Source of the DNA: Candidatus Naiadarchaeum limnaeum
Lineage (GTDB): Archaea; Undinarchaeota; Undinarchaeia; Undinarchaeales; Naiadarchaeaceae
Assembly (NCBI GenBank): GCA_014189685.1
Contig: DVAB01000028.1
Location: forward strand, 1 to 13,197
Length of the DNA stretch: 13,197 nucleotides
Direction: 5' to 3'
The notes beneath the pieces were generated by a model. It ran no database searches. It was given only the letters and a program-made list of their open reading frames with translations, and had not been told where the DNA came from. Shown here in pieces: positions 2,300 through 13,197 of the stretch. Position 1 is the first letter of the stretch, and each line of letters starts with the position of its first letter. Both the position numbers and the translations under genes were made by a program.

Positions 2300-2785
2300 T
2301 TAAACAATCTGTGTTTTAGGCCACAGCGGCGCAAGCAAAAGCTGAACAAATTTCTTATAAACCTTAAAAGTTTCTTCTACTTTCACCTTAACCATTTTTC
2401 TGAAGAATCTTATTCCACGGCCTTTAAATTTCTTCCTTAATCGGTTCCCAAAATGTGGAGCAAGCTCTCCCGCTATAGCATTTTCAAGAGGCACCCTCCC
2501 AACAATAATGCGGCATACATCTGTGTTTTCAGCCAAATAATAAACTATCAATCTTATTCTAACCTGCGCTGGCAAATCATTGTGGAGCTCTAAAAACTCG
2601 TTTATAAAAACTTCGTTTCGTGGATCATAGATTGGATTATTCTCAAGCAATTTGCGCGCGCCCCAAACAAGCTGGGGAATAACATTTGGGAAAAATTGCA
2701 CACTATATCTAGAAAAAACTTCTGCCATTAAATATTTCTTTAATGTTGCGCGCGAAATTTCAGTACTCGACGCCCCAGCGGCCAT
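2300..2785 (-). CDS. Unrecognised small helical protein, overlapping the adenosyltransferase gene
   Basis: I do not recognise this 161-residue protein. It looks all-helical: an amphipathic N-terminal part (SRATLKKYLMAEVFSRYSVQ), a segment with Pro- and Asn-rich turns (NNPIYDPRNEVFINEF), a hydrophobic helix (VRIRLIVYYLAENTD), and a very basic stretch (GNRLRKKFKGRGIRFFRKMV) before a Lys-rich amphipathic C-terminus. There is no signal peptide. I place the start at the ATG at 2785, because a GGTG motif lies just before it; a GTG two codons earlier (2791) is also open, as is an ATG at 2728. It overlaps the end of the adenosyltransferase gene by 26 bases in another frame, which points to translational coupling. 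The basic patch suggests RNA, DNA or membrane-phosphate contact (inference). Confidence 0.72.
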   Translation of the reverse strand: MAAGASSTEISRATLKKYLMAEVFSRYSVQFFPNVIPQLVWGARKLLENNPIYDPRNEVFINEFLELHNDLPAQVRIRLIVYYLAENTDVCRIIVGRVPLENAIAGELAPHFGNRLRKKFKGRGIRFFRKMVKVKVEETFKVYKKFVQLLLAPLWPKTQIV

Positions 2786-3332
2786 ATACACCTTTATCGA
2801 TGGGGTGCTTTATCTTTTTTACCTCGCTAACATAGTCCGCCAGTTTTAAAACTTCCTCATGTGCGCCGCGGCCAGTAATTATTAACTCTGTTTTTGGATT
2901 TTTATTTTTTATCAACTCAATTAATTCCTTTGGCTGCACAAAAGCATAGCTCACTGCAACATTTGCCTCATCAAGAATAATTAAATCATATTCCCCGCTT
3001 TTTGTGATCTCTTTCGCAAACTTAATTGCCTCTCTTGAGGAGCGCGCAGCGTCCTCATCGTTCAAAAAACAATCCCTGCAACTCCCACACTCGAAAGGCG
3101 TATCCAAACGCTCATCCAGATAAGTGCAGTTTTTTCCAAACTGCTTCCACAAAATATTCGGGAATTTTTGCGCAGCCATGTATTCGCCTATGTAAGAGCC
3201 GCCTTTTAAAAATTGAATCACAGCGACTTTCAAATTGTGGCCGGCTGCGCGGAAAGCGATTCCTAGAGAAGTTGTTGTTTTTCCTTTGCCATCTCCAGTA
3301 ATAACATGAACAAGACCTAAATCTGATTTCAA
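2760..3332 (-). CDS. btuR: Corrinoid adenosyltransferase (CobA/BtuR type)
   Basis: The 190-residue product adds the 5'-deoxyadenosyl group of ATP to cob(I)alamin or its precursors, making adenosylcobalamin in the cytosol. It has the CobA/CobO/BtuR landmarks: an N-terminal P-loop GDGKGKTT (13-20), FLKG (about 41-44), the Walker-B-like IILDEANVA (about 108-116), and the family-typical C-terminus TGRGAHEEVLKLADYVSEVK followed by KHPIDKG and WGVEY. A Cys cluster (C82-x2-C85-x2-C88, plus C69) sits mid-protein. I chose the TTG at 3332 because AAGGAGAGG (3342-3350) and GGTG precede it; a GTG at 3341 is the alternative. The frame stays open to a TTG at 3410, but that falls in a hairpin and has no ribosome binding site. 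No other cobalamin-synthesis gene is visible, which fits salvage for the nearby B12-dependent reductase. Confidence 0.93.
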   Translation of the reverse strand: MKSDLGLVHVITGDGKGKTTTSLGIAFRAAGHNLKVAVIQFLKGGSYIGEYMAAQKFPNILWKQFGKNCTYLDERLDTPFECGSCRDCFLNDEDAARSSREAIKFAKEITKSGEYDLIILDEANVAVSYAFVQPKELIELIKNKNPKTELIITGRGAHEEVLKLADYVSEVKKIKHPIDKGVYGRWGVEY

Positions 3333-3341
3333 TGAGAACAC

Positions 3342-3350
3342 CCTCTCCTT
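3342..3350 (-). promoter_or_regulatory. Ribosome binding site deciding the adenosyltransferase start
   Basis: The minus strand reads AAGGAGAGG and runs straight into GTG-TTC-TCA-TTG. It is one of the strongest Shine-Dalgarno sequences in the window. It lies within the longer open frame, so it argues for a start at 3332 (TTG; GAGG 9 bases away) or 3341 (GTG; spacing shorter than usual) rather than at 3410. Confidence 0.6.
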
Positions 3351-3406
3351 CCGAACGAGGGAATAAAGTAAACAAACTGAGTTAATAAGTTTTGTTGTTA
3401 TAGACA

Positions 3407-3429
3407 GCAAGGAAGTGAAACTTCCTTGC
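3407..3429. repeat. Perfect 9-bp inverted repeat (hairpin A) in the adenosyltransferase leader
   Basis: GCAAGGAAG and CTTCCTTGC are separated by the five-base loop TGAAA. The stem is perfect and lies 75-97 bases upstream of the proposed TTG start of the adenosyltransferase gene, inside the predicted 5' leader. A single base separates it from hairpin B. Confidence 0.7.
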
Positions 3430-3891: not shown

Positions 3892-4320
3892 ATGAAAAAA
3901 CTAATACTCTGGATTTCTTTGTTGATTTTAGTTATAGTAATTAGCGGCTGCATTTCTGAAAAAGCAAAAAAGACTGAAGAGACAAGAACAGAGGTCAGGG
4001 CAAAAATGGGAAATATGGAAATGGTGATTGCGCCAACACTTAACAACACAGTCAAGGACATAGTTACAATAACAGCGACAAAAGTGGCGGCAGGCACAGA
4101 GATAGTTGCGTTTGCAATTCAGGGCCGCGGCATAGAAGATTTGAATAAAACAGGCCCTAATCTGGGCATAGACAGTGATGGCAGTGATGGCTGGAATTAT
4201 CTTTTTGATAGCCTAACCTATCCAAATGGAGTTTATACAATTTATACTATTGCTGGAGTACTAAAGAATGACACACCGCCCTTGGGGGGAGTTACAGCAC
4301 AGGTTATAATTCAGAATTAA
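3892..4320 (+). CDS. Secreted lipoprotein with a compact beta domain
   Basis: I place the start at the ATG at 3892, which gives a textbook lipoprotein signal peptide: MKK, a hydrophobic core (LILWISLLILVIVI) and the lipobox ISGC with Cys20 as the lipid-anchored residue. The frame is open further upstream, but that part lacks a signal and overlaps the preceding gene. The mature 123 residues start with a charged linker and continue into a beta-rich segment (NTVKDIVTITATKVAAGTEI; later NGVYTIYTIAGV and VTAQVIIQN), with an Asp/Gly-rich loop (DSDGSDG) that could bind calcium. The alternation resembles an Ig-like or CARDB/FN3-type extracellular domain. Function is unknown. Its stop overlaps the convergent nrdJ stop (TTAA at 4317-4320), so the two genes share their last bases. 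Confidence 0.75.
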   Translation: MKKLILWISLLILVIVISGCISEKAKKTEETRTEVRAKMGNMEMVIAPTLNNTVKDIVTITATKVAAGTEIVAFAIQGRGIEDLNKTGPNLGIDSDGSDGWNYLFDSLTYPNGVYTIYTIAGVLKNDTPPLGGVTAQVIIQN

Positions 4321-6863
4321 GCAACCGCGCAATAGGAATATCCGCAAGAAGGACAAGTCGCACATCCTTCACTCAAAACCATTTTTGTGCTGCACTCCGG
4401 GCATTTTTCTCCTACAGAGACTGCAGCAGCAGATGGAGCATTCATTTGTATCTTTGCCTCAACTTCCTCTTGCTTGGCTTTTTCTTTTCCAGTTCCAGTA
4501 ACTAAGACTTGCGATTTAATCGACGTGTCACGGAAAACAGTTACCCCCTTGCAGCCAAGATTATATGCAAGCTCATAAACTTTTTTCATGTGCTCCACAG
4601 TCGCATCTGCAGGGAAGTTTGTTGTTTTGCTAATTGAGCTATCGGTCCAGCGCTGGAATGCCGCAAGTGCGCGCACATGGTCTTCCGGAGTAATATCATA
4701 TGCAACTGTTAAAACGCGCTTGATCTCCTTTGGGACATATTCAATTTTTTGAATACTACCGCTTGCATTTGCAACATCTTCTAAAAGTTTTTCATCGTGC
4801 AGGCCTGCTCTTTTCATTACGCGCTCAAATGCAGGATCTACATAATAAAAGCTTCCAACAGCGACATTTTTCTGGAAAACAGAGCTGAAAACTGGCTCCA
4901 TTCCGCTTGAGACTCCAGCTATCATTGAAATTGATCCGGTGGGCGCAATTATTGTTGTGTATCCATTTCTGATTCCGTGCTTCTTAATCTCATTAACAAG
5001 CTTGTCCCAATCCAGATGCCAGCTTGCCTTATCATCAAAGCCTGCAAATGGAAGCCTGCCTTCAGGATAGAAAGATTTACTCAAATATGGCATTATCCCG
5101 CGCTCTTTTGCCAATTCAACAGATTCAACCTTGCTCCAGTAAGTTATGAACTCCATCAATCGCTCCATGAATTCCCTTCCTTCCTCTGTGTTATATGGCA
5201 ATCCAAGCTCAAACAATAAATCCCCGACTCCCATTACTCCAAGCCCTACTTTTCTTGTGGCAAGGCTCATATCCTCAATTGCTTTCAGAGGAAACTTGTT
5301 TACATCAATAACATTGTCCAAAAATTTCGTGCATGCCAAAGTTGTTTCCTTTAATTCATCCCAATCAAAATAAAGTTCGCCATTTTCATTCTCTTTTATG
5401 AAAGCATAGACATTTATGCTCCCAAGATTGCAGGGTTCATTTGGATACAAAAGAACTTCTCCGCACGGGTTTGTTGTGACTATTGGGCCAAGGTGTTTCA
5501 GAAATGGATTATACTTGTTTACAGTATCATAGAAAATAACTCCGGGCTCTGCGCTCTCCCAAGCCTGATAAATAATTCTTTCCCACAAAAGTTTTGGGCT
5601 TATGTGATCCACAATCTGCCCGTTTCTTGGATTTATTAGTGGATATGGATTATCATTCTTTAAGTGCTCCCAGAAATCTGGCATAATCAAAACAGAGATA
5701 TTAAAGTTTCTCAGTGCTTTGTTTCCTGTTTTTGCAGTCACAAACTTTAAAACATCTGGATGATTTGAATTAAGCATTCCCATATTCGCGCCGCGCCTGA
5801 TTCCACCCTGTTTTATTACCTCTGTCATCTTGTCAAACAAACTCATGAATGAAATCGGACCGCTTGCTGCTCCAGTAGTTGTCGAAACAAAATCTCCTTC
5901 AGGGCGGAGTTTTGAAAAGTTATATCCCATCCCGCCGCCTGCTTTGAAAACAATTGCTGTATTTTTTAGGGCATCCATTATACTATCTAAAGAGTCCTCA
6001 ATTCCGATAACAAAACATGCACTTCCCATTCCAAGTGGATTTCCAAAATTAGCAATTGCAGGGGTGTTGGGCATGAATTTCTTTGAAACCATAACCTCGT
6101 AGTACTCTGCAATGTTTTTCTCATAGTGCTTAAATTCGCCCTTTTGGAGCATATCAAAAAATTTCTTCCAGGAAACTTTCATCTGCCTGTTCTTGTTGTG
6201 CCTGTCATAAAGGCGCTTTACAGCTTCCAAATGATATCTGTTTAAATGATATTTTCCAATTGAAACTTTTTCATCCCAATCAGCATAATCGAAAGATTCA
6301 TGCTCGTGAGTTTTTTGTTTTGCCTCGTTGTCAAAAACTTTTGAATCATAAAATAAATCAGGAATAGTATCATGGACTGCAATTCTTGTAAAAAGCTGTT
6401 TTGGAGTTTCAATCAAATGCCCTTTCTCATCCTTTCTCAAATAGCGGGCTTTTAAAACTCTCAGCGCGTTTATATCGAAATTCTTATCAACATCATCTAT
6501 AGTATCCTTTTCTAAAACTTGCATCTTCTCCTTTCTGATTTCAGCGCGCTGCTGCCTGTACAAAATAAATGCCTTTGCTGTGCGCGCATGGCCTTCCTCA
6601 ATTAAAACTTTTTCAACAGCATCCTGAACATCTTCAACGCTTGGAATTTGACCTGCAAATTTTCTCTCCAAAAGCTCTATAACTTTTTCAGCAAGCTTTT
6701 CAGAGAGCTTCTTGTCCTGCCCGCCTATTGAGCGCGCTGCTTTCCAGATTGCGCCTGCTACTTTGGAAGGATTAAAATCAACAACTTTTCCATCCCTTTT
6801 CTTGATTTTAGTTATCTTAGAAGTTCCTTTTAGAACAGTTTTTTGTTTTTCAATTAAGGCCAT
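4317..6863 (-). CDS. nrdJ: Adenosylcobalamin-dependent (class II) ribonucleoside reductase
   Basis: This 848-residue enzyme makes deoxyribonucleotides, using adenosylcobalamin to form the active-site thiyl radical. Numbered from the ATG: an ATP-cone at about 15-110; the GMGSACF segment with C283; the catalytic NPCGE loop with N465, C467 (thiyl radical site) and E469; PCNLGSIN with C478, the partner redox Cys; the phosphate-binding PTGSIS (641-646); and a C-terminal ribbon with C821-x2-C824 and C837-x2-C840, plus C834 and C845, which could shuttle electrons to the active site. All expected catalytic residues are present and the length suits the cone-bearing NrdJ family. I prefer the ATG at 6863 over the TTG at 6869 because the GGAGG lies 10 bases before the ATG and only 4 before the TTG. 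The gene ends tail-to-tail with the lipoprotein gene. Confidence 0.96.
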   Translation of the reverse strand: MALIEKQKTVLKGTSKITKIKKRDGKVVDFNPSKVAGAIWKAARSIGGQDKKLSEKLAEKVIELLERKFAGQIPSVEDVQDAVEKVLIEEGHARTAKAFILYRQQRAEIRKEKMQVLEKDTIDDVDKNFDINALRVLKARYLRKDEKGHLIETPKQLFTRIAVHDTIPDLFYDSKVFDNEAKQKTHEHESFDYADWDEKVSIGKYHLNRYHLEAVKRLYDRHNKNRQMKVSWKKFFDMLQKGEFKHYEKNIAEYYEVMVSKKFMPNTPAIANFGNPLGMGSACFVIGIEDSLDSIMDALKNTAIVFKAGGGMGYNFSKLRPEGDFVSTTTGAASGPISFMSLFDKMTEVIKQGGIRRGANMGMLNSNHPDVLKFVTAKTGNKALRNFNISVLIMPDFWEHLKNDNPYPLINPRNGQIVDHISPKLLWERIIYQAWESAEPGVIFYDTVNKYNPFLKHLGPIVTTNPCGEVLLYPNEPCNLGSINVYAFIKENENGELYFDWDELKETTLACTKFLDNVIDVNKFPLKAIEDMSLATRKVGLGVMGVGDLLFELGLPYNTEEGREFMERLMEFITYWSKVESVELAKERGIMPYLSKSFYPEGRLPFAGFDDKASWHLDWDKLVNEIKKHGIRNGYTTIIAPTGSISMIAGVSSGMEPVFSSVFQKNVAVGSFYYVDPAFERVMKRAGLHDEKLLEDVANASGSIQKIEYVPKEIKRVLTVAYDITPEDHVRALAAFQRWTDSSISKTTNFPADATVEHMKKVYELAYNLGCKGVTVFRDTSIKSQVLVTGTGKEKAKQEEVEAKIQMNAPSAAAVSVGEKCPECSTKMVLSEGCATCPSCGYSYCAVA

Positions 6864-6873
6864 TTTCAAAACG

Positions 6874-6881
6874 CCTCCTTT
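6874..6881 (-). promoter_or_regulatory. Strong ribosome binding site of nrdJ
   Basis: AAAGGAGG on the minus strand is a near-complete match to the anti-Shine-Dalgarno sequence. Its spacing favours the ATG at 6863 over the in-frame TTG at 6869. Confidence 0.75.
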
Positions 6882-6896
6882 ATTTCTTTTTTGAAA

Positions 6897-6924
6897 ACAC
6901 GAGGAAATTTTATTTCCGAAGTGT
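6897..6924 (-). promoter_or_regulatory. Hairpin between the small basic ORF and nrdJ
   Basis: GGAAAT-TTT-ATTTCC (6903-6917) is a perfect 6-bp stem. It can extend across a small internal loop with ACAC (6897-6900) pairing to GTGT (6921-6924). It sits after the stop of the 33-residue ORF and 16 bases before the nrdJ ribosome binding site. It could be an attenuator, a processing site or a translational control element; the minus strand has only a short U run after it, so a full terminator is unlikely. Confidence 0.4.
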
Positions 6925-6929
6925 ATTAT

Positions 6930-7031
6930 TTACCTCCTCTTTTTCGGTTGCTTCCGATTGCGAAGCAATCGGCGAACTTTACCAACTTTCAACGGTTTGC
7001 GCTTTTTCTTAGAATAAACAGCTAAAGTCAT
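6930..7031 (-). CDS. Probable 33-residue, highly basic protein upstream of nrdJ
   Basis: An ATG at 7031 opens a 33-codon frame ending in TAA at 6930-6932. The product starts MTLAVYSKKKRKPLKVGKVR and ends in KKRR; 17 of its 33 residues are Lys or Arg and none is acidic. A GAGG motif lies 5 bases before the ATG, and two candidate TATA boxes lie upstream. It resembles short basic ribosome- or nucleic-acid-binding peptides in composition (for example L41e), but I cannot match it to a family. It reads in the same direction as nrdJ, 66 bases before the nrdJ ATG, so it may be co-transcribed or act as a leader peptide. The non-random composition, ribosome binding site and context support it; its shortness limits confidence. 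Confidence 0.5.
   Translation of the reverse strand: MTLAVYSKKKRKPLKVGKVRRLLRNRKQPKKRR
6954..6972. repeat. Perfect 8-bp inverted repeat inside the small basic ORF
   Basis: CCGATTGC and GCAATCGG flank the loop GAA. In the minus-strand transcript the stem covers the Arg-Leu-Leu-Arg-Asn-Arg codons of the 33-residue ORF. It could be a coding coincidence, an RNA control element ahead of nrdJ, or a small palindromic repeat like those upstream of the adenosyltransferase gene. Confidence 0.6.
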
Positions 7032-7055
7032 CTAACCCTCATTATTTCCTTTTGC

Positions 7056-7072
7056 TTTTTATACCTTTCTAT
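7056..7072 (-). promoter_or_regulatory. BRE/TATA promoter of the basic ORF-nrdJ unit
   Basis: The minus strand reads ATAGAAAGG-TATAAAAA, with 13 bases (7060-7072) identical to the adenosyltransferase promoter block. The TATA centre lies about 29 bases before the ATG at 7031, so the transcript would be leaderless or nearly so for the basic ORF and carry about 170 bases of leader for nrdJ. Confidence 0.55.
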
Positions 7073-7079
7073 AAAAGCT

Positions 7080-7102
7080 GGATAGACTATCCAACTTATA
7101 TA
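7080..7102 (-). promoter_or_regulatory. Second TATA box with adjoining palindromic operator candidate
   Basis: A further TATA-like TATATAA (7102-7096, minus strand) is followed three bases later by the perfect palindrome GGATAG-T-CTATCC (7092-7080). Transcription from this box would start near 7073 and include the GAGG site of the small ORF. A palindrome just downstream of a TATA box is where an archaeal repressor would block polymerase loading, so this is a candidate operator for nrdJ expression. It does not match the NrdR box that I know. Confidence 0.4.
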
Positions 7103-7160
7103 TTTTTCGCCAATGAAAGAGCACTTTTCAGACAGCTGTAACTTCGCGATGGAGAAATTT

Positions 7161-9011
7161 TTATTGAACATACTGCTCAATATATTTTTCTTCTCTTTCG
7201 CCAGCTAACCATGCAACTGCATTAAAAGTGATTTCGCGCTGATGCCTCTCTATTTTCTCAACAAAATTAATTTTGAAAAGAACATTGCCATAACCCGGAG
7301 GAGGGCTATCTGATCCAAATACTACATCGAAAAGAATGGGGTCAATTTTTCTTCTCCCACATCCTACAAATGAAATATGGCTAACATTATAAGCTTTTAT
7401 CACCTCAACCACTTTTCCTATGCTGTCGCTTGGAACATCAACAGTTTTTCTGTCAGAATTGTAATGTAAAACTGAAGAAGCGCATGTCATTATAACATCA
7501 TCATCTTTAGTTGCTTCTTTTATCAGCTCTCCCATTTTTGCTATGTTCTCATCTATTGCAGTAGCTCTATAGGGATAACGTGCGTCTTTATTAAAAAAGT
7601 TTCCAAAACCTTGCGGTATGTTTACTAAAAGAAAAATTAGTAGGAAAATAAAAAGAATTTTTTCAAGATCAATTTTTTTAAGTTTAGGGAATCGTTCTGA
7701 AGCAAGTTCTAAAATACGCCTCGTTCCTGCCCATGAAAAAATAAAGAAAAATACAATTAAAGGGAGGAAGTATCTATCTGCTGGGAAAACGTAGATCCCA
7801 TGGGCTACCACGAATGCAAGCCACAAAAGCGCAAATAACCTATTTCGGCTGCTTTCTTTGCCAAGCTCAATATTTGCTATATATAATATTATAAAAAGCG
7901 GGATAGCACCTAAGATATGAAATAAGGGATAAAATGTACTTATACTTATTATATTTGGTAACATTAAGTCTATTAGAAGTATTGGAAATATAATGGCAAA
8001 AGCACTTATGAAAAGAAGTTTTTTTCCAATTTTTTCTCTGGTTGTTACTATCAACCCAATAAATGCAGGCAAAATCAAATATAGGAGGTTCTCAAAAGGT
8101 ATTGTGAAGCCATTTAGAATTTTTGGGACAAATCTGTGTTCAAAAAACCCTGGTGGTGAAGAAGAAATCAACCATGAAAGAGAAGGTTTCTCAATGCCCC
8201 AAAATACCTTAAATCCAACTTCCTCATAAACAGGATACCATCCAAATATCCACTGCGCATACCTGTTTGCTGTGAAAAAGGGGTCTCCAAAAATTAAATA
8301 ACTCCTTATAAGCCATGGAGAAATGACTAAAAATGTTACAATGATTCCATTGATAAACTTGAGATCAAATTTCTTTTTTATCAAATAGTAAACCAGAATT
8401 AAGGTAGGGAGAACTATGAGCATTGTTTGTCTAACAAGATACGATAGTCCCAAAAACAACCCCATTAATAAAAAGTATTTTGTCTTCTCTTCCTTTAATC
8501 CTTTATAAAAGAAATAAACTCCCCCCAGCAAAAAAAATGCTAAAACCGTGTCGCGCCAAGAGAGGGCAAGCCCAAAAGTACGCGCATAAAACAAAACAGA
8601 AATTGCTGAAAGAAACCCGATTTTTTTATCAAAAAATTCTTTCCCTAGATAATATGTTAAAATCGGAAATAAAATTGTTCCTATGAATATAATTGGAATT
8701 TTCACAGCCATTGGTGTTTTCCCTAAAAAGTAGATAAATGGGGCTGCAATTATACCCATCATTGGAAACCCCCAGTCTTCTGGATGGGATACTGAATTGA
8801 ATTTAATAAAAAACTCATCAACAAAGTCCAGGACGAATCCTTTACCTTTTAAAATATTTTCGCCAAGGTTATAAAAGAATGCAACATCTGGGCTTCCAAA
8901 CTTTACCTTTGAGCTAAAATACAATTCTATAATGAAAACACTTATTACGATAAGCAAAAGCAAAATTAGAAAAAGGTCGTATTTTTTATCTGTAGATTTT
9001 TGATCGTTCAT
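7161..9011 (-). CDS. GT39-like membrane glycosyltransferase
   Basis: The 616-residue product begins with a short charged cytoplasmic tail and a first membrane helix at about 12-31. An extracytoplasmic loop (GSPDVAFFYNLGENILKGKG, about 39-58) has the acidic residue (Asp42) where PMT/ArnT-type GT39 enzymes carry a catalytic Asp. About ten further helices follow to roughly residue 478 (for example FLLMGLFLGLSYLVRQT). The last 135 residues are soluble, with Rossmann-like beta-alpha alternation. Such enzymes transfer a sugar from a polyprenyl- or dolichyl-phosphate donor to a protein or lipid outside the membrane. The catalytic assignment is by fold and loop, since GT39 sequences diverge strongly. 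It starts 20 bases after the beta-helix gene's stop without a ribosome binding site, so the two are probably co-transcribed; the sequon-rich neighbour could be a substrate (inference). Confidence 0.8.
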   Translation of the reverse strand: MNDQKSTDKKYDLFLILLLLIVISVFIIELYFSSKVKFGSPDVAFFYNLGENILKGKGFVLDFVDEFFIKFNSVSHPEDWGFPMMGIIAAPFIYFLGKTPMAVKIPIIFIGTILFPILTYYLGKEFFDKKIGFLSAISVLFYARTFGLALSWRDTVLAFFLLGGVYFFYKGLKEEKTKYFLLMGLFLGLSYLVRQTMLIVLPTLILVYYLIKKKFDLKFINGIIVTFLVISPWLIRSYLIFGDPFFTANRYAQWIFGWYPVYEEVGFKVFWGIEKPSLSWLISSSPPGFFEHRFVPKILNGFTIPFENLLYLILPAFIGLIVTTREKIGKKLLFISAFAIIFPILLIDLMLPNIISISTFYPLFHILGAIPLFIILYIANIELGKESSRNRLFALLWLAFVVAHGIYVFPADRYFLPLIVFFFIFSWAGTRRILELASERFPKLKKIDLEKILFIFLLIFLLVNIPQGFGNFFNKDARYPYRATAIDENIAKMGELIKEATKDDDVIMTCASSVLHYNSDRKTVDVPSDSIGKVVEVIKAYNVSHISFVGCGRRKIDPILFDVVFGSDSPPPGYGNVLFKINFVEKIERHQREITFNAVAWLAGEREEKYIEQYVQ

Positions 9012-9031
9012 TTAATCAAAAATTTAGCATA

Positions 9032-11344
9032 TTAAGGAGGACCTCTTGTTCTTGCACTATCGTTTGTCCAATTCCCGATATTAGTGACATTATCCACGGG
9101 GCGTACTTCTAGTTCATAAATTGCCCCAGAATTTAAACCAGTTGCGAGATAGAAGTTTATCGGCGCGGAAAGATTTACCTGGAAAATATTATCAAGCCAA
9201 ACTTCTGTGTGATTGAAATCAGAATCTGAAGGATTTGTCCAGCTCCAAAGAATTGTATGAGCTGTTGTATGAACCTCACTTAGATTTATTATATCCGCAG
9301 GCGGTGTTATATCGAGTGTTCTTGCAGTATCATTTACCCAGTTTGGATTTACGTTTCCAACTAAATCAACAGTTCTTGTTTGAATTTCGTAAACTGTGTG
9401 CTCATTCAATCCAGTTGCATTGTAAGAATTACTTGAAACATTTGCGCGGAAAGTGTTGTTAATCCAAATTTCCGCATGGCTGAAATCAATATCGGTGGGG
9501 TTTATCCAGCTCCAGAGAATCCAGAGTCCGCCAACTGCCGCTTCTGCCAAATTAGTAATTGTTGAAGGTGGGGTTGTGTCAATTACAACATAGCGCTTTT
9601 CGCTTATTCCTGTGAGTCCAGTGGTGTCATTTGCGTAAACCTTGAATGAGTAATTATCATCAGTCAGCGAAGTTTTGTTTTTAAACCAATGCAATCCGCT
9701 GCCTAACATTGATTCATTTATGCCATTCCAGTTTAGTGCTGCTGAACTTCCGGTCTCGTTCAAAGTCACATTTATAAATGCCCAATTTCTAGCAATAGTT
9801 TCATTATTTGGTGTTGGTAGAACAAATGTAACTACTGGCGGTGCATTTGGCTCTGTTAGTGGGGCAAAATCCCCCCCTCCTGCGGGAATATTTCCGCTTG
9901 AGTTGTATGGAATTTCAGTATCCCCCAAACCATCCCCATTCAAATCTGTTCCATTGTAGTGACTCCAGAAATTACCTGCGATAAATGGACCGCCCATTAT
10001 ATTTGGGCCAGGCTGCTTAGTTATATTAAATTTATTAAGAGTACTATCTGTTGCCGCATCTCTAAAAGTAGAATTAATATAATTGTCATAAATAAAGCTG
10101 GGCGCCTCACCAGTCCCTGCAGTGATTCCCTCCCTTACCATTGATACGTTATTTCTGTAAATAGTGGCATACGATGCCCCTCCCCTTAAACTAATTCCTC
10201 TGCCTGCTGCCGGAACAGTATTTGTGGAGAGGTTGAATATAAAGTTACTATAAATAGTTGTATTTCTTCCTCCCCCAGCCACGCCAAAGGCCACATCGAT
10301 CATAGTATTATTAGAAATGTTCGCAAGGTGCTGTGCTTCAAACGATACTGCGGTAGCGTACGGCGAATTTAAAAATTTATTTCCTGTAACATTTGTAGAA
10401 TTAGGTTGGTGGCCATTAAAACCTGTGAGCCCCAGTAGAATTGTCTCTCGCGAAGTTGTATAGTTTTGCATCGTATTATTTCTAAAGTTAGCTGGTACTT
10501 CTAATCTTACTGCTGCTGTGGCACAAGGACCATTTTCAATGGTATTAAATTCAATAGTATAATTTTTAAAAACAGATAAACCTGATATAATTATAGCCTC
10601 TACACACATATTACGGATAGTATTATTTTTTATCGATATGTGTTCTGCTGTTGTTGGCGTATGCGTTATTCTAATTCCAAAAGTGCCAAAAGAATTGTCT
10701 GTACGTTCTATGTAATTACTTTCAATAGTTGAATTAGCTCCTGTTAGAGTAATCGCAAAATTACTGTAGCTGGAAAAATTATTATTTGCTATTGTAATTC
10801 TAGTTAGATTGCTTGTACTACCAGTGGCAATTACTCCATTAGCCATATTTGTCATACGAGAATTTGTTATGTTTATGCCATTTTTGTTTGATATAGTAAC
10901 AAGCGTATCACGTGATTCTGCGCCAGTCCCACTAATGTTCAACTGATCTAGATTAACGAAATCTGTGACAACACAGATTTGAGTTGGAGTGTAACCAGGA
11001 CAGGATAAACCTATACCAGTTCTACTTATATTAAATCTTGTAACATTTACAAAATTAGAGCTTATGTAAACTGTTCCACTAATGTTACTCTCTAATGTAT
11101 CATTTGACTGAATGTGTAAACTTTTGGTGGTGTTTATATCTTCTACGAAGCTGCCCGTGGCATTTAAAATATCTCCATCAATAACACTTTCTGAATTAAT
11201 TGCGGCAGTGATTGTAGTAAAATCACAGAATCCAAAAGTTGGAGGGCAAACTGTCCACGTTGTAGCGTTGGTTTCAATTGCTATCACAGAGAAAAAAACG
11301 ATTGAAAATATTAAGATAAATCTAAATTTAAGCAATTTATCCAT
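9032..11344 (-). CDS. Secreted beta-helix protein with NosD-like motif and two FN3-like repeats
   Basis: I start at the ATG at 11344 (770 residues); the frame extends two codons to a TTG. Residues 1-24 are a signal peptide with a Phe/Ile-rich core. From about 40 to 440 the sequence is a right-handed parallel beta-helix, with repeated short strands separated by Asn-rich turns (for example FNISRTGIG, IKNNTIRNM). At about 458-476 comes the NosD-type phrase NFWSHYNGTDLNGDGLGDT, whose Asp/Gly loop may bind calcium. An Ig-like domain (about 500-588) and two FN3-like repeats (589-678, 679-768) follow. I count 44 N-x-S/T sequons. There is no C-terminal membrane helix or sorting signal, so it is either released or held by partners. 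A role as adhesin or polysaccharide-binding surface protein is inference; no lyase residues were identified. Confidence 0.88.
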   Translation of the reverse strand: MDKLLKFRFILIFSIVFFSVIAIETNATTWTVCPPTFGFCDFTTITAAINSESVIDGDILNATGSFVEDINTTKSLHIQSNDTLESNISGTVYISSNFVNVTRFNISRTGIGLSCPGYTPTQICVVTDFVNLDQLNISGTGAESRDTLVTISNKNGINITNSRMTNMANGVIATGSTSNLTRITIANNNFSSYSNFAITLTGANSTIESNYIERTDNSFGTFGIRITHTPTTAEHISIKNNTIRNMCVEAIIISGLSVFKNYTIEFNTIENGPCATAAVRLEVPANFRNNTMQNYTTSRETILLGLTGFNGHQPNSTNVTGNKFLNSPYATAVSFEAQHLANISNNTMIDVAFGVAGGGRNTTIYSNFIFNLSTNTVPAAGRGISLRGGASYATIYRNNVSMVREGITAGTGEAPSFIYDNYINSTFRDAATDSTLNKFNITKQPGPNIMGGPFIAGNFWSHYNGTDLNGDGLGDTEIPYNSSGNIPAGGGDFAPLTEPNAPPVVTFVLPTPNNETIARNWAFINVTLNETGSSAALNWNGINESMLGSGLHWFKNKTSLTDDNYSFKVYANDTTGLTGISEKRYVVIDTTPPSTITNLAEAAVGGLWILWSWINPTDIDFSHAEIWINNTFRANVSSNSYNATGLNEHTVYEIQTRTVDLVGNVNPNWVNDTARTLDITPPADIINLSEVHTTAHTILWSWTNPSDSDFNHTEVWLDNIFQVNLSAPINFYLATGLNSGAIYELEVRPVDNVTNIGNWTNDSARTRGPP
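9041..9580 (-). repeat. Tandem duplication of an FN3-like domain
   Basis: Two consecutive units of about 90 codons (9580-9311 and 9310-9041) share, in order: TPP-x3-I-x-NL, ILWSW-x-NP-x-D-x-DF, E-x-W, ATGLN, YE, VD and W-x-ND-[ST]-ART. The second copy stops at ARTRGPP where the first continues into the next repeat (ARTLDITPP), so the protein ends exactly at a repeat boundary. Confidence 0.8.
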
Positions 11345-11386: not shown

Positions 11387-11968
11387 TTAGATATTTTTCG
11401 CTAGAAGCAAAGTTTTAGCAGCCGCGAATGCACCCAATTCTGCTTGTCTTTTTGTATTTGCAAAAGCAACTATAATAACATCGCCCTCTGAGAGCTTGAA
11501 ATTTTCTTTAATGCCGCTGAAAATATCATGGTAAACAGTCTCAATACTATCAACGCCTGGCAGTATTAACTTGTTATTTTTAAAAATCAACACTAAGCAG
11601 CCCTCAGCTCCTGAACGCACAGCAGCATCCCTCTGTTCCAATCCCAAATTTATCATGCTTGAGGAGTTTGAAATCTTAAACGCTGCTGAAAAATCACCAA
11701 AATCGATATGCACAGGCCCGCTTAAAACAGCTTTTATTTTATGCACAAAGCTTTTTCCATTATCATTCAGAGAAATACCTTTTGTTGTTGTGCGCACAAA
11801 TTTAGCCTTGGAGAGTTTTTTCATTAAGCTCCGTGTAGAGGCCTCGGTTAGTCCAAGGCTGCGTATCAATTGATTTCTACCAAGAGGTTTTTCATGGATA
11901 AGGATTAGAGCTTTGATTAAATCATATTCTGAAAAATTTGCAAAGCTTGGCGCAAGGAGGTTTTTCAT
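11387..11968 (-). CDS. Winged-helix protein with DUF4443-like C-terminal domain
   Basis: The 193-residue protein has an N-terminal winged helix (about 15-78): EYDLIKALILIHEKPLGRNQ, a probable recognition helix TEASTRSLMKKLSKA, and a short wing. A compact alpha/beta domain follows (about 82-190) with the phrase GLEQRDAAVRSGAEG (109-123), then FKNNKLILPGVDS and a C-terminal Ala-rich helix (AELGAFAAAKTLLLA). This order matches archaeal proteins annotated as DUF4443 with a helix-turn-helix; I am fairly, not fully, sure of the family. It probably binds DNA and senses a ligand through the C-terminal domain. Its ATG is the base after the TGA of the NrdD-like gene, so translation is coupled and the two likely form one operon. 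A role in controlling nucleotide reduction is inference from that pairing. Confidence 0.78.
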   Translation of the reverse strand: MKNLLAPSFANFSEYDLIKALILIHEKPLGRNQLIRSLGLTEASTRSLMKKLSKAKFVRTTTKGISLNDNGKSFVHKIKAVLSGPVHIDFGDFSAAFKISNSSSMINLGLEQRDAAVRSGAEGCLVLIFKNNKLILPGVDSIETVYHDIFSGIKENFKLSEGDVIIVAFANTKRQAELGAFAAAKTLLLAKNI

Positions 11969-13197
11969 TCAAGCCTTTTCAAACTTAAAATACTGTATTT
12001 TTGTTTTTGCAATCTCTTGAATCAATTCAAACAAATCCTGCAAATCCCCATTTCTGTATGGCAAAACAGAAAGCGCACCGCCATCAGCATATTCATGAAA
12101 TTGCGATTCAATTTTTGCGCGCTGAAGAGGTAACAAAGGAGCGCTTTTTTGCACTGAAAATCCTGGAGTATAAGTTGGCTTTCCTGCCCCATTTATCTGA
12201 GTAATTGCGCCCTTGAAATTTTGCAAATCAATCTCTGCAAGCCTGTTTGCAACAACCTTTGAGGGAACTGCAGATAATGCAAAATTCAATCCAGATGACT
12301 CTTTGAGCTCGGATAAGTAATTGCTCATGAACTTAACCGTTTTCAGGGCAAGCCTTTGCCCGTCTGAATCCTCGTGCAGGGCTTTTTCTGTAATAAACTT
12401 AACAAACTCGTTCATTCCTGTTATTCCAACGATTAAAAACTGCTTGTCAATATCAAGATACTTTGTTCCATCAATTGGCTGCTCAAGAAAAGGAAGCGCT
12501 CCGTTTTCCAAGTTCTTTGCAAGTGCATTTTTCTTCAGCAAAAGAACATCGCGCGCAGAATCAATTCGGCTCTGCAAGAGCTCATTTATGCGCTCCTCTT
12601 TTCCTCTGCCCATGTAAGCAATGTTTGGAAGATTTAAAGTTACGATTTGTGAAACTCCGCCTCTTATTGTCCCGTTTGCAATATCAAACTGTGTTGAAAG
12701 TTTATCCAGCGGAACAAGATAGGAGCAGTTCTGGAAAGTTGAAAATTCAGAGAAATAGTTTTGCTTAACTATAAAATAAGGAAAAGCATATTTTGCAGTC
12801 AGGCGGAGAATTTTTTCCCAGTTTCCGTCCAAATTTTTAAAAGAGTCCTGCTCTATGCTCACATTTATTTTCGGGAATGTGAACTGGTTTTTTGAATAAT
12901 CTCCCTCAATAAAAACATCCAGCAATCCGGATAACAAAATTTTTGCTTCTAATTCATAATCACCATAAGTCCCATTTATTCGCCCGCCTGGTACAACTGC
13001 TGCCGTGTGTTTTAATCTTTTTGGAACAGATAAATCCAAGTCAATACTTGAAAAGACTGTTTGCCCGCCTCGGGCAACATACATCTGAGACATTTCGTAA
13101 ATAAAAATCTGCGCAAGCTGTTTCATTCTGTGATAATTCAATCCGCGTGCATATGGAGCAAGCAAAGTATTAAACGAGAAAAATCCCTGGCCGCCGC
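11969..13197 (-). CDS. nrdD: Class III (anaerobic) ribonucleotide reductase NrdD homologue, lacking the glycyl-radical C-terminus; 5' end beyond the window
   Basis: The frame runs unbroken from the right edge to TGA at 11969-11971 (408 visible codons); the TTG at 13165 is internal. The opening GGQGFFSFNTLLAPYARGLN, then IYEMSQMYVARGGQTVFSSI, GGRINGTYGDYE, IVTLNLPNIAYMGRG and a terminal GGALSVLPY segment are clear NrdD core landmarks. A single Cys (codon 12727-12725, FQNCSYL) aligns with the thiyl-radical Cys of the usual MGCRT/MGCRS motif, though flanking residues differ. The chain ends at IAKTKIQYFKFEKA. In the family about 60-80 residues normally follow, with four zinc-binding Cys and the RVxGY-type glycyl-radical loop; here they are absent and the next gene starts immediately. 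Either the radical domain is supplied in trans, or this is a divergent NrdD-like protein with another role. Any N-terminal ATP-cone would lie outside the window. Confidence 0.88.
   Translation of the reverse strand, partial: GGQGFFSFNTLLAPYARGLNYHRMKQLAQIFIYEMSQMYVARGGQTVFSSIDLDLSVPKRLKHTAAVVPGGRINGTYGDYELEAKILLSGLLDVFIEGDYSKNQFTFPKINVSIEQDSFKNLDGNWEKILRLTAKYAFPYFIVKQNYFSEFSTFQNCSYLVPLDKLSTQFDIANGTIRGGVSQIVTLNLPNIAYMGRGKEERINELLQSRIDSARDVLLLKKNALAKNLENGALPFLEQPIDGTKYLDIDKQFLIVGITGMNEFVKFITEKALHEDSDGQRLALKTVKFMSNYLSELKESSGLNFALSAVPSKVVANRLAEIDLQNFKGAITQINGAGKPTYTPGFSVQKSAPLLPLQRAKIESQFHEYADGGALSVLPYRNGDLQDLFELIQEIAKTKIQYFKFEKA

Follow-up and report, generated by a model that had tools for sequence, protein, structure and literature searches.

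Organization of the locus

The window, by which we mean the whole stretch of DNA analysed (13197 bases), is a complete contig of a 984-kb Undinarchaeota genome assembled in 52 contigs (98.08% complete, 0.77% contamination). A paralogue of the membrane protein encoded at 7161-9011 was found on another contig of the same genome, which agrees with the window contig belonging there. On the minus strand, the window carries an open reading frame for a protein derived from the class III reductase NrdD (11969..13195), and directly downstream of it a gene for a DUF4443/PH0730-like protein with an N-terminal helix-turn-helix (11387..11968; Pfam DUF4443, 6e-25; CggR_N, 4e-8; PDB 2p8t, 1.8e-16). Farther along the same strand follow nrdJ, encoding a class II (B12-dependent) reductase (4317..6869), and cobO, encoding the ATP:corrinoid adenosyltransferase that makes the NrdJ cofactor (2760..3410; Pfam, 1.4e-53). 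NrdJ possesses an ATP-cone, the NPCGE motif and a C-terminal zinc tail, as seen in Pfam/NCBIfam matches and by alignment; according to a genome search and alignment it is the only class I/II-type barrel encoded in the genome, and its catalytic motifs are intact. The order NrdD-like gene, nrdJ, cobO on one strand is the same as in the related genomes described below. At the opposite end of the contig, a short open reading frame on the plus strand (2-289, open at its 5' side) encodes an ATP-cone that resembles the one in NrdR (8.7e-7).

The contig ends within the 5' part of the NrdD-like gene, and the N-terminal ~215 residues are therefore unreadable; the 408 codons present cover the catalytic barrel from GGQG as far as its final strand. 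Their translation matched positions 104-505 of the 562 in Pfam NRDD (5.8e-73), as well as solved class III reductases, both by sequence and by fold. An AF2 model (40 sequences; pLDDT 88.2, pTM 0.86) was produced, and the top 36 PDB matches of a Foldseek search with it were all class III NrdD. Pfam, model and Foldseek agree on the presence of the ten-stranded NrdD-homologous barrel, the N-terminal part of which lies off the contig.

The original prediction had stated that this homologue ends before the zinc site and the glycyl-radical loop, and Pfam, alignment and model all confirmed it. The model ends on strand 402-407, the last strand of the barrel, so the protein, with the C-terminus ...KIQYFKFEKA, stops at the radical-domain boundary. 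In an alignment with 40-odd archaeal homologues this end falls just before the segment YFAFTKD-x4-CxxC...CxxC...SRITGYY of full-length NrdDs, and the alignments show that the Cys4 zinc site is absent from the protein. The same boundary is observed in the P. copri structure, where a disordered radical domain leaves nothing visible past the last strand of the barrel (PMC11226230). In the sequence TGAATG, the stop codon of the NrdD-like gene abuts the ATG of its downstream neighbour, again as predicted. A RITGYY-type C-terminal glycyl-radical loop is absent from the gene, from the DNA that follows and from the genome as a whole. On these grounds, neither a frameshift concealing such a domain nor its location on another contig was retained as an explanation, in line with the earlier view that a simple frameshift is no explanation.

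Search for the radical domain and the activase

Since PF01228 by itself detects NrdD radical domains only weakly, a zinc/radical-domain profile was derived from the C-terminal domains of ten archaeal NrdDs. This profile gave no match better than E=0.06 in the 98.08%-complete, 52-contig window genome (G000), and none better than 0.44 in the genomes of three relatives. As a positive control, the same profile gave E-values of 6e-35 for full-length NrdDs and of 5e-14 to 7e-17 for stand-alone domains (60-127 aa), the stand-alone controls being located in G002 and G006-G009. The NrdG activase was not found in the window genome either; TIGR02495 (NrdG2) gave only sub-cut-off matches, all of them radical-SAM proteins (four, 340-582 aa) that resemble other families in sequence. 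The original prediction had considered a split reductase with its radical domain encoded elsewhere, and had proposed a search of the genome for nrdG and for a small protein with CxxC...CxxC and a radical loop. Neither was found, and the lack of a radical domain in the window genome and in all three relatives speaks against that option here, although a small gene could have escaped an assembly at this level of completeness.

Orthologues in related genomes, selection and phylogeny

The comparison within Undinarchaeota comprised six genomes for which the order, class and phylum sets are identical, and its breadth within the phylum is limited. Three relatives from another family of the same order (G003, G004 and G005; loci L017, L015 and L016) encode a complete orthologue of ~610 aa (e.g. 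L015:6007-7821), which includes an ATP-cone and has an end point identical to that of the window protein, an agreement that the original prediction had marked as worth checking. The orthologues are 40-41% identical to the window protein and 84-86% identical among themselves. In G001, nrdJ is present and NrdD was not found (75%-complete genome), while G002, which represents a third family, has a split class III reductase and no class II barrel. A further genome labelled Candidatus Undinarchaeales (G010; L036) is 3.8 Mb in size, its NrdD groups elsewhere, and it is probably mislabelled or mixed.

Pairwise dN/dS of the NrdD-like gene, calculated among the three relatives only, was 0.087, 0.095 and 0.160 at a dS of about 1, and the neighbouring genes gave 0.06-0.12 (the two nrdJ genes) and 0.04-0.05 (cobO). 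The NrdD-like gene of the relatives is thus under purifying selection and is not decaying. The original prediction had also offered gene decay, nrdJ having rendered nrdD dispensable, which would fit the disappearance of the catalytic motifs and the presence of a class II reductase. It is nevertheless improbable, given the clean end point common to two families, a window frame that stays open over 408 codons and, in the relatives, a dN/dS of about 0.1 that is similar to that of the adjoining nrdJ.

In the phylogenetic tree, the window protein and its relatives form one clade (100/99), which sits within a 13-row group together with NrdDs of Altiarchaeales, Aenigmatarchaeota and Huberarchaeota (100/99). 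When either the window protein or the relatives were left out, the remaining one still fell beside Altiarchaeales; long-branch attraction between the two was rejected, as each alone lands in the same place. The truncated NrdDs of the window and of the relatives likely share a common origin. The branches are long, and a single truncation in the common ancestor of the two families, retained for long afterwards, makes the simplest history, independent truncation of similar donors being less likely.

Loss and retention of catalytic and allosteric motifs

In NrdD, the NxN flap, the HxHD motif and the TPAE loop are involved in substrate binding, the finger-loop Cys forms the thiyl radical, and helix B and loop 2 make up the specificity site (PMC11226230, PMC4493059). 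The finger-loop motif QCC[S/A/R] characterizes the NrdD3 subgroup (PMC9669993). Compared with QCC[S/A/R] in true NrdD3, the finger loop reads QNCSY in the window protein and QNSSY in all three relatives. Cys157 of the window protein (codon 12725..12727, minus strand) aligns with the thiyl-radical Cys, at the place in QNCSY where the original prediction had seen the active-site Cys; its reference motif MGCR[ST] was the wrong comparison, because QCC is the finger-loop motif of NrdD3, the lineage concerned. The predicted change of TPAE-type residues is also evident from the alignments, the substrate triphosphate-binding TPAE being replaced by VPSK in the window protein (residues 310-313; 12257..12268, minus strand) and by CPAT in the relatives. 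The substitution of Asn for Cys before the thiyl Cys and the exchange of TPAE for VPSK are the unusual changes of the window copy. The NxN and HxHD motifs are readable only in the relatives, and there ETEK, ESEG or EREE is found in place of ENAN, and HIHR in place of HIHD, with loss of the Asp. Because the window protein keeps a Cys at the thiyl position, the catalytic loss is less complete there.

The dNTP specificity-site/dimer region, consisting of helix B and loop 2, was located by alignment at residues 23-52 of the window protein (RMKQLAQIFIYEMSQMYVARGGQTVFSSID; 13040..13129, minus strand). A column was counted as conserved if 85% of a set of 41 true NrdDs shared it. In the window protein, helix B/loop 2 keeps 20 of 21 such columns as opposed to 58 of 86 elsewhere (p=0.012), and the catalytic motifs keep 4 of 8; in the relatives, the ATP-cone and linker keep all 25 of 25, as opposed to 14 of 25 in the catalytic motifs (p=2e-4), these p values being indicative since the segment borders were hand-picked from the literature. 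Helix B/loop 2 of the relatives keeps 16 of 21 columns, which is not above background.

The tree nests the window protein and its relatives inside the NrdD3 class III reductases, with which they have the barrel, helix B/loop 2 and, in the relatives, the ATP-cone in common. They differ from NrdD3 in the absence of the zinc site and radical Gly, in the changed TPAE and, in the relatives, in the loss of NxN, the HxHD Asp and the thiyl Cys. A glycyl-radical-enzyme fold without a recognizable radical Gly is also known from SP0239 (named in PMC4390871), although that protein, as far as it is described, is not an NrdD that has retained its nucleotide-sensing region and has no link to a class II operon. 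There is good support for the loss of catalysis, and the window protein is very probably not a working class III reductase. An enzyme that is still active with altered chemistry, either on another substrate or with a thiyl radical generated by another route, would be compatible with the intact barrel fold and with Cys157 of the window copy; however, the thiyl Cys is a Ser in the sister family, the substrate motifs are lost in both families and neither activase nor radical domain was found, which makes such an activity quite improbable.

Split class III reductases in other archaea

Separation of the radical domain from the NrdD core was observed in several other archaeal groups. The NrdD core of Methanomicrobiales ends before the zinc site, with QCC and TPAE intact (L050-L054, L063, L064), and a separate protein of ~125 aa carries a zinc ribbon and SRVTGY (L075:1258-1635, L076:1255-1632). 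A relative of the small protein was found in 55 of 61 Methanomicrobiales genomes, a relative of the core likewise in 55 of 61, and two of the genomes checked have no class II barrel. Apparently, the class III reductase is split throughout this order. A different type of division, inside the Cys4 zinc site with one CxxC on each polypeptide, was detected in the Undinarchaeote G002, in G009 and in a Nanoarchaeote (L005:865-2820 with L084:1477-1656; L083:1-1566 with 1567-1740; L069:5734-10686 with 10701-10898). The stop codon at the split is TAA in G002 and TAG in G009, and these different stops, the presence of own start codons and the recurrence of the arrangement argue against a sequencing error. 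A glycyl-radical protein encoded separately is relevant to the loading, repair or exchange of the radical domain.

These separations, which appear real, and the Cys157 retained in the window copy are what would speak for the window protein being the core of a split class III reductase, with the zinc/glycyl-radical domain supplied by a separate protein that assembles with it. We consider this highly improbable. In addition to the missing radical domain and NrdG, the window protein has lost TPAE and the relatives the thiyl Cys, whereas true split cores keep QCC or ECC together with TPAE. True split cores also pass the NrdD cut-off that the window protein misses: with TIGR02487 (NCBIfam, cut-off 326 bits), split cores with an intact active site score 377 and 462, and the window protein and a relative score 218 and 245, missing ends lowering such scores. 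A radical domain separate from its core, as in the splits of these other archaea, is reminiscent of YfiD, the spare part for pyruvate formate-lyase (PMC8683613); the window genome differs in that no radical domain of any kind was found. Division of a reductase between genes is likewise seen in the class II pair NrdJa/NrdJb (PMC9669993), which belongs to another class, and the NrdJ of the window is a single chain.

Further unusual NrdD arrangements were encountered in this comparison. G002 encodes a second stand-alone small radical half of 58 aa away from its nrdD locus (L078:1459-1635, minus strand), which is reminiscent of a YfiD-type spare part. A full-length NrdD homologue at L045:3634-5916 retains a Gly in its radical loop but neither the finger-loop Cys pair nor the Cys of RPFC nor the Asp of HxHD; its genome additionally carries nrdJ and a split NrdD. 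In a bacterial homologue from Syntrophaceae (L068:5887-8040), Lys takes the place of the radical Gly (ARLTKYY) and Ser that of the RPYC Cys. Tandem pairs of full-length NrdDs with intact motifs occur in an Altiarchaeote (L020:3311-5614 and 5704-8124) and in Jingweiarchaeum (L046:5647-8013 and 8014-10077).

A fused NrdD homologue in Bathyarchaeota

At eight Bathyarchaeal loci, a second NrdD homologue is encoded immediately upstream of the true nrdD. Its architecture comprises a winged helix (DUF7347 down to 8e-9, HTH_45, ArsR-type), an ATP-cone and the NRDD core (L034:3594-5699, L038:3575-5722, L040:3586-5694, L042:3598-5706, L044:1093-3201, L061:3493-5718); two of the eight loci are without the full N-terminus, owing to a contig edge or the choice of start (L043:2703-4703, L035:1-1752). 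The fusion has neither the finger-loop Cys pair nor TPAE nor the radical Gly, and its loop 2 is deleted or altered. An AF2 model of the fusion reached a pLDDT of 60 and was left out of the analysis. The dead NrdDs of Undinarchaeota and Bathyarchaeota form separate clades in the tree, on which grounds a common origin was rejected. The Bathyarchaeal fusion is therefore a separate lineage, in which loop 2 is lost, and an analogy to the window gene instead of the same gene. As judged from its predicted domains, it is an example of a dead NrdD fused to a DNA-binding domain, and it is a candidate regulator of the reductase.

Gene neighbourhood and a possible regulatory role

In all three relatives, the NrdD-like gene heads an operon in which it is followed by genes for NrdJ1 (836 aa, no ATP-cone), a 74-aa Cys-rich protein, NrdJ2 (683 aa, ATP-cone) and CobO. 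It overlaps nrdJ1, and a TrmB-family gene is divergently transcribed from the short intergenic region at the NrdD-like gene. In the window, the DUF4443 gene and two large unrelated genes lie between the NrdD-like gene and nrdJ, which is about 4.5 kb away. The coupling to a DUF4443-like gene that had been pointed out from the window holds there and was not seen in the relatives, from whose genomes the DUF4443 gene is absent. In two other archaea that possess DUF4443, the gene is located beside unrelated genes, not nrdD, and DUF4443 was rejected as a conserved partner of the NrdD-like protein. A link to DNA binding might be provided by the coupled DUF4443/HTH gene, in the window only, and by the divergent TrmB-family gene in the relatives; within the readable part of the window protein itself there is no DNA-binding domain.

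That strong purifying selection acts on a gene without radical domain and substrate motifs points to a function other than catalysis, and the retention of the allosteric-nucleotide regions in a gene near nrdJ and cobO suggests a dNTP-sensing regulator. Among the options of the original prediction, an NrdD-derived regulator best fits the motif loss, the kept specificity-site region, the nrdJ/cobO neighbourhood and the Bathyarchaeal parallel, and on balance we lean towards this role, exerted on the class II reductase system. Arguments against it are the absence of a DNA-binding domain from the readable window protein, its Cys at the thiyl position, the restriction of the DUF4443 pairing to the window, the distance of ~4.5 kb to nrdJ and the 16 of 21 columns kept in the specificity site of the relatives. 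Alternatively, the protein could serve NrdJ as a stoichiometric subunit, in an allosteric or scaffolding capacity, with no role in transcription. The overlap with nrdJ1 in the relatives supports this notion, as does the complementary occurrence of the ATP-cone, which NrdJ1 lacks and the NrdD relative has. In the window, however, the coupling is to an HTH gene and nrdJ lies 4.5 kb away with an ATP-cone of its own, and we regard a pure subunit role as rather unlikely.

The analysis shows the anatomy of the protein, its missing motifs, the genome contents, the single clade and, for the relatives, purifying selection; for the dNTP-sensing regulator, we infer ligand binding, a partner and a direction of control as follows. 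An ancestral archaeal NrdD3 would have lost the glycyl-radical domain at the domain boundary along with substrate-site residues, and the lineage of the relatives would additionally have lost the thiyl Cys. The resulting pseudoenzyme probably still dimerizes, with dNTPs bound at its specificity site and, in the relatives, where the N-terminus is known, ATP/dATP bound at the ATP-cone. It would then report the state of the dNTP pool to the class II system, i.e. nrdJ plus cobO. In the window, the likeliest output would be transcriptional, via the HTH protein encoded directly downstream, while in the relatives direct contact with NrdJ is equally plausible, given the overlap with nrdJ.

The idea of a reductase-derived nucleotide-sensing module that controls reductase genes is shared with NrdR (PMC9110341, PMC12176259), which is a small zinc-ribbon/ATP-cone protein, as opposed to an NrdD barrel without its own DNA-binding domain in the readable part. 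For the control of dNTP supply in archaea without a known NrdR, a catalytically dead NrdD kept together with class II genes would be a testable candidate, in which an enzyme would have been reused as a sensor. More tentatively, archaea may have made a class III reductase into a dNTP sensor for the class II enzyme at least once, in Undinarchaeota, and, with the Bathyarchaeal protein, into a transcription factor, which would amount to a recurring type of regulator distinct from NrdR. Neither a dead NrdD regulator nor a split NrdD was described in the literature searched, most subscription journals being outside it, and novelty is accordingly unproven.

The operon of the relatives holds one further peculiarity. 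NrdJ1 and NrdJ2 are both without a zinc tail, and NrdJ2 has SPCGE in place of NPCGE. The 74-aa Cys-rich open reading frame (L015:10328-10555, L016:10330-10554, L017:9207-9431), which overlaps the end of nrdJ1, looks like a separately encoded C-terminal zinc tail of a class II NrdJ.
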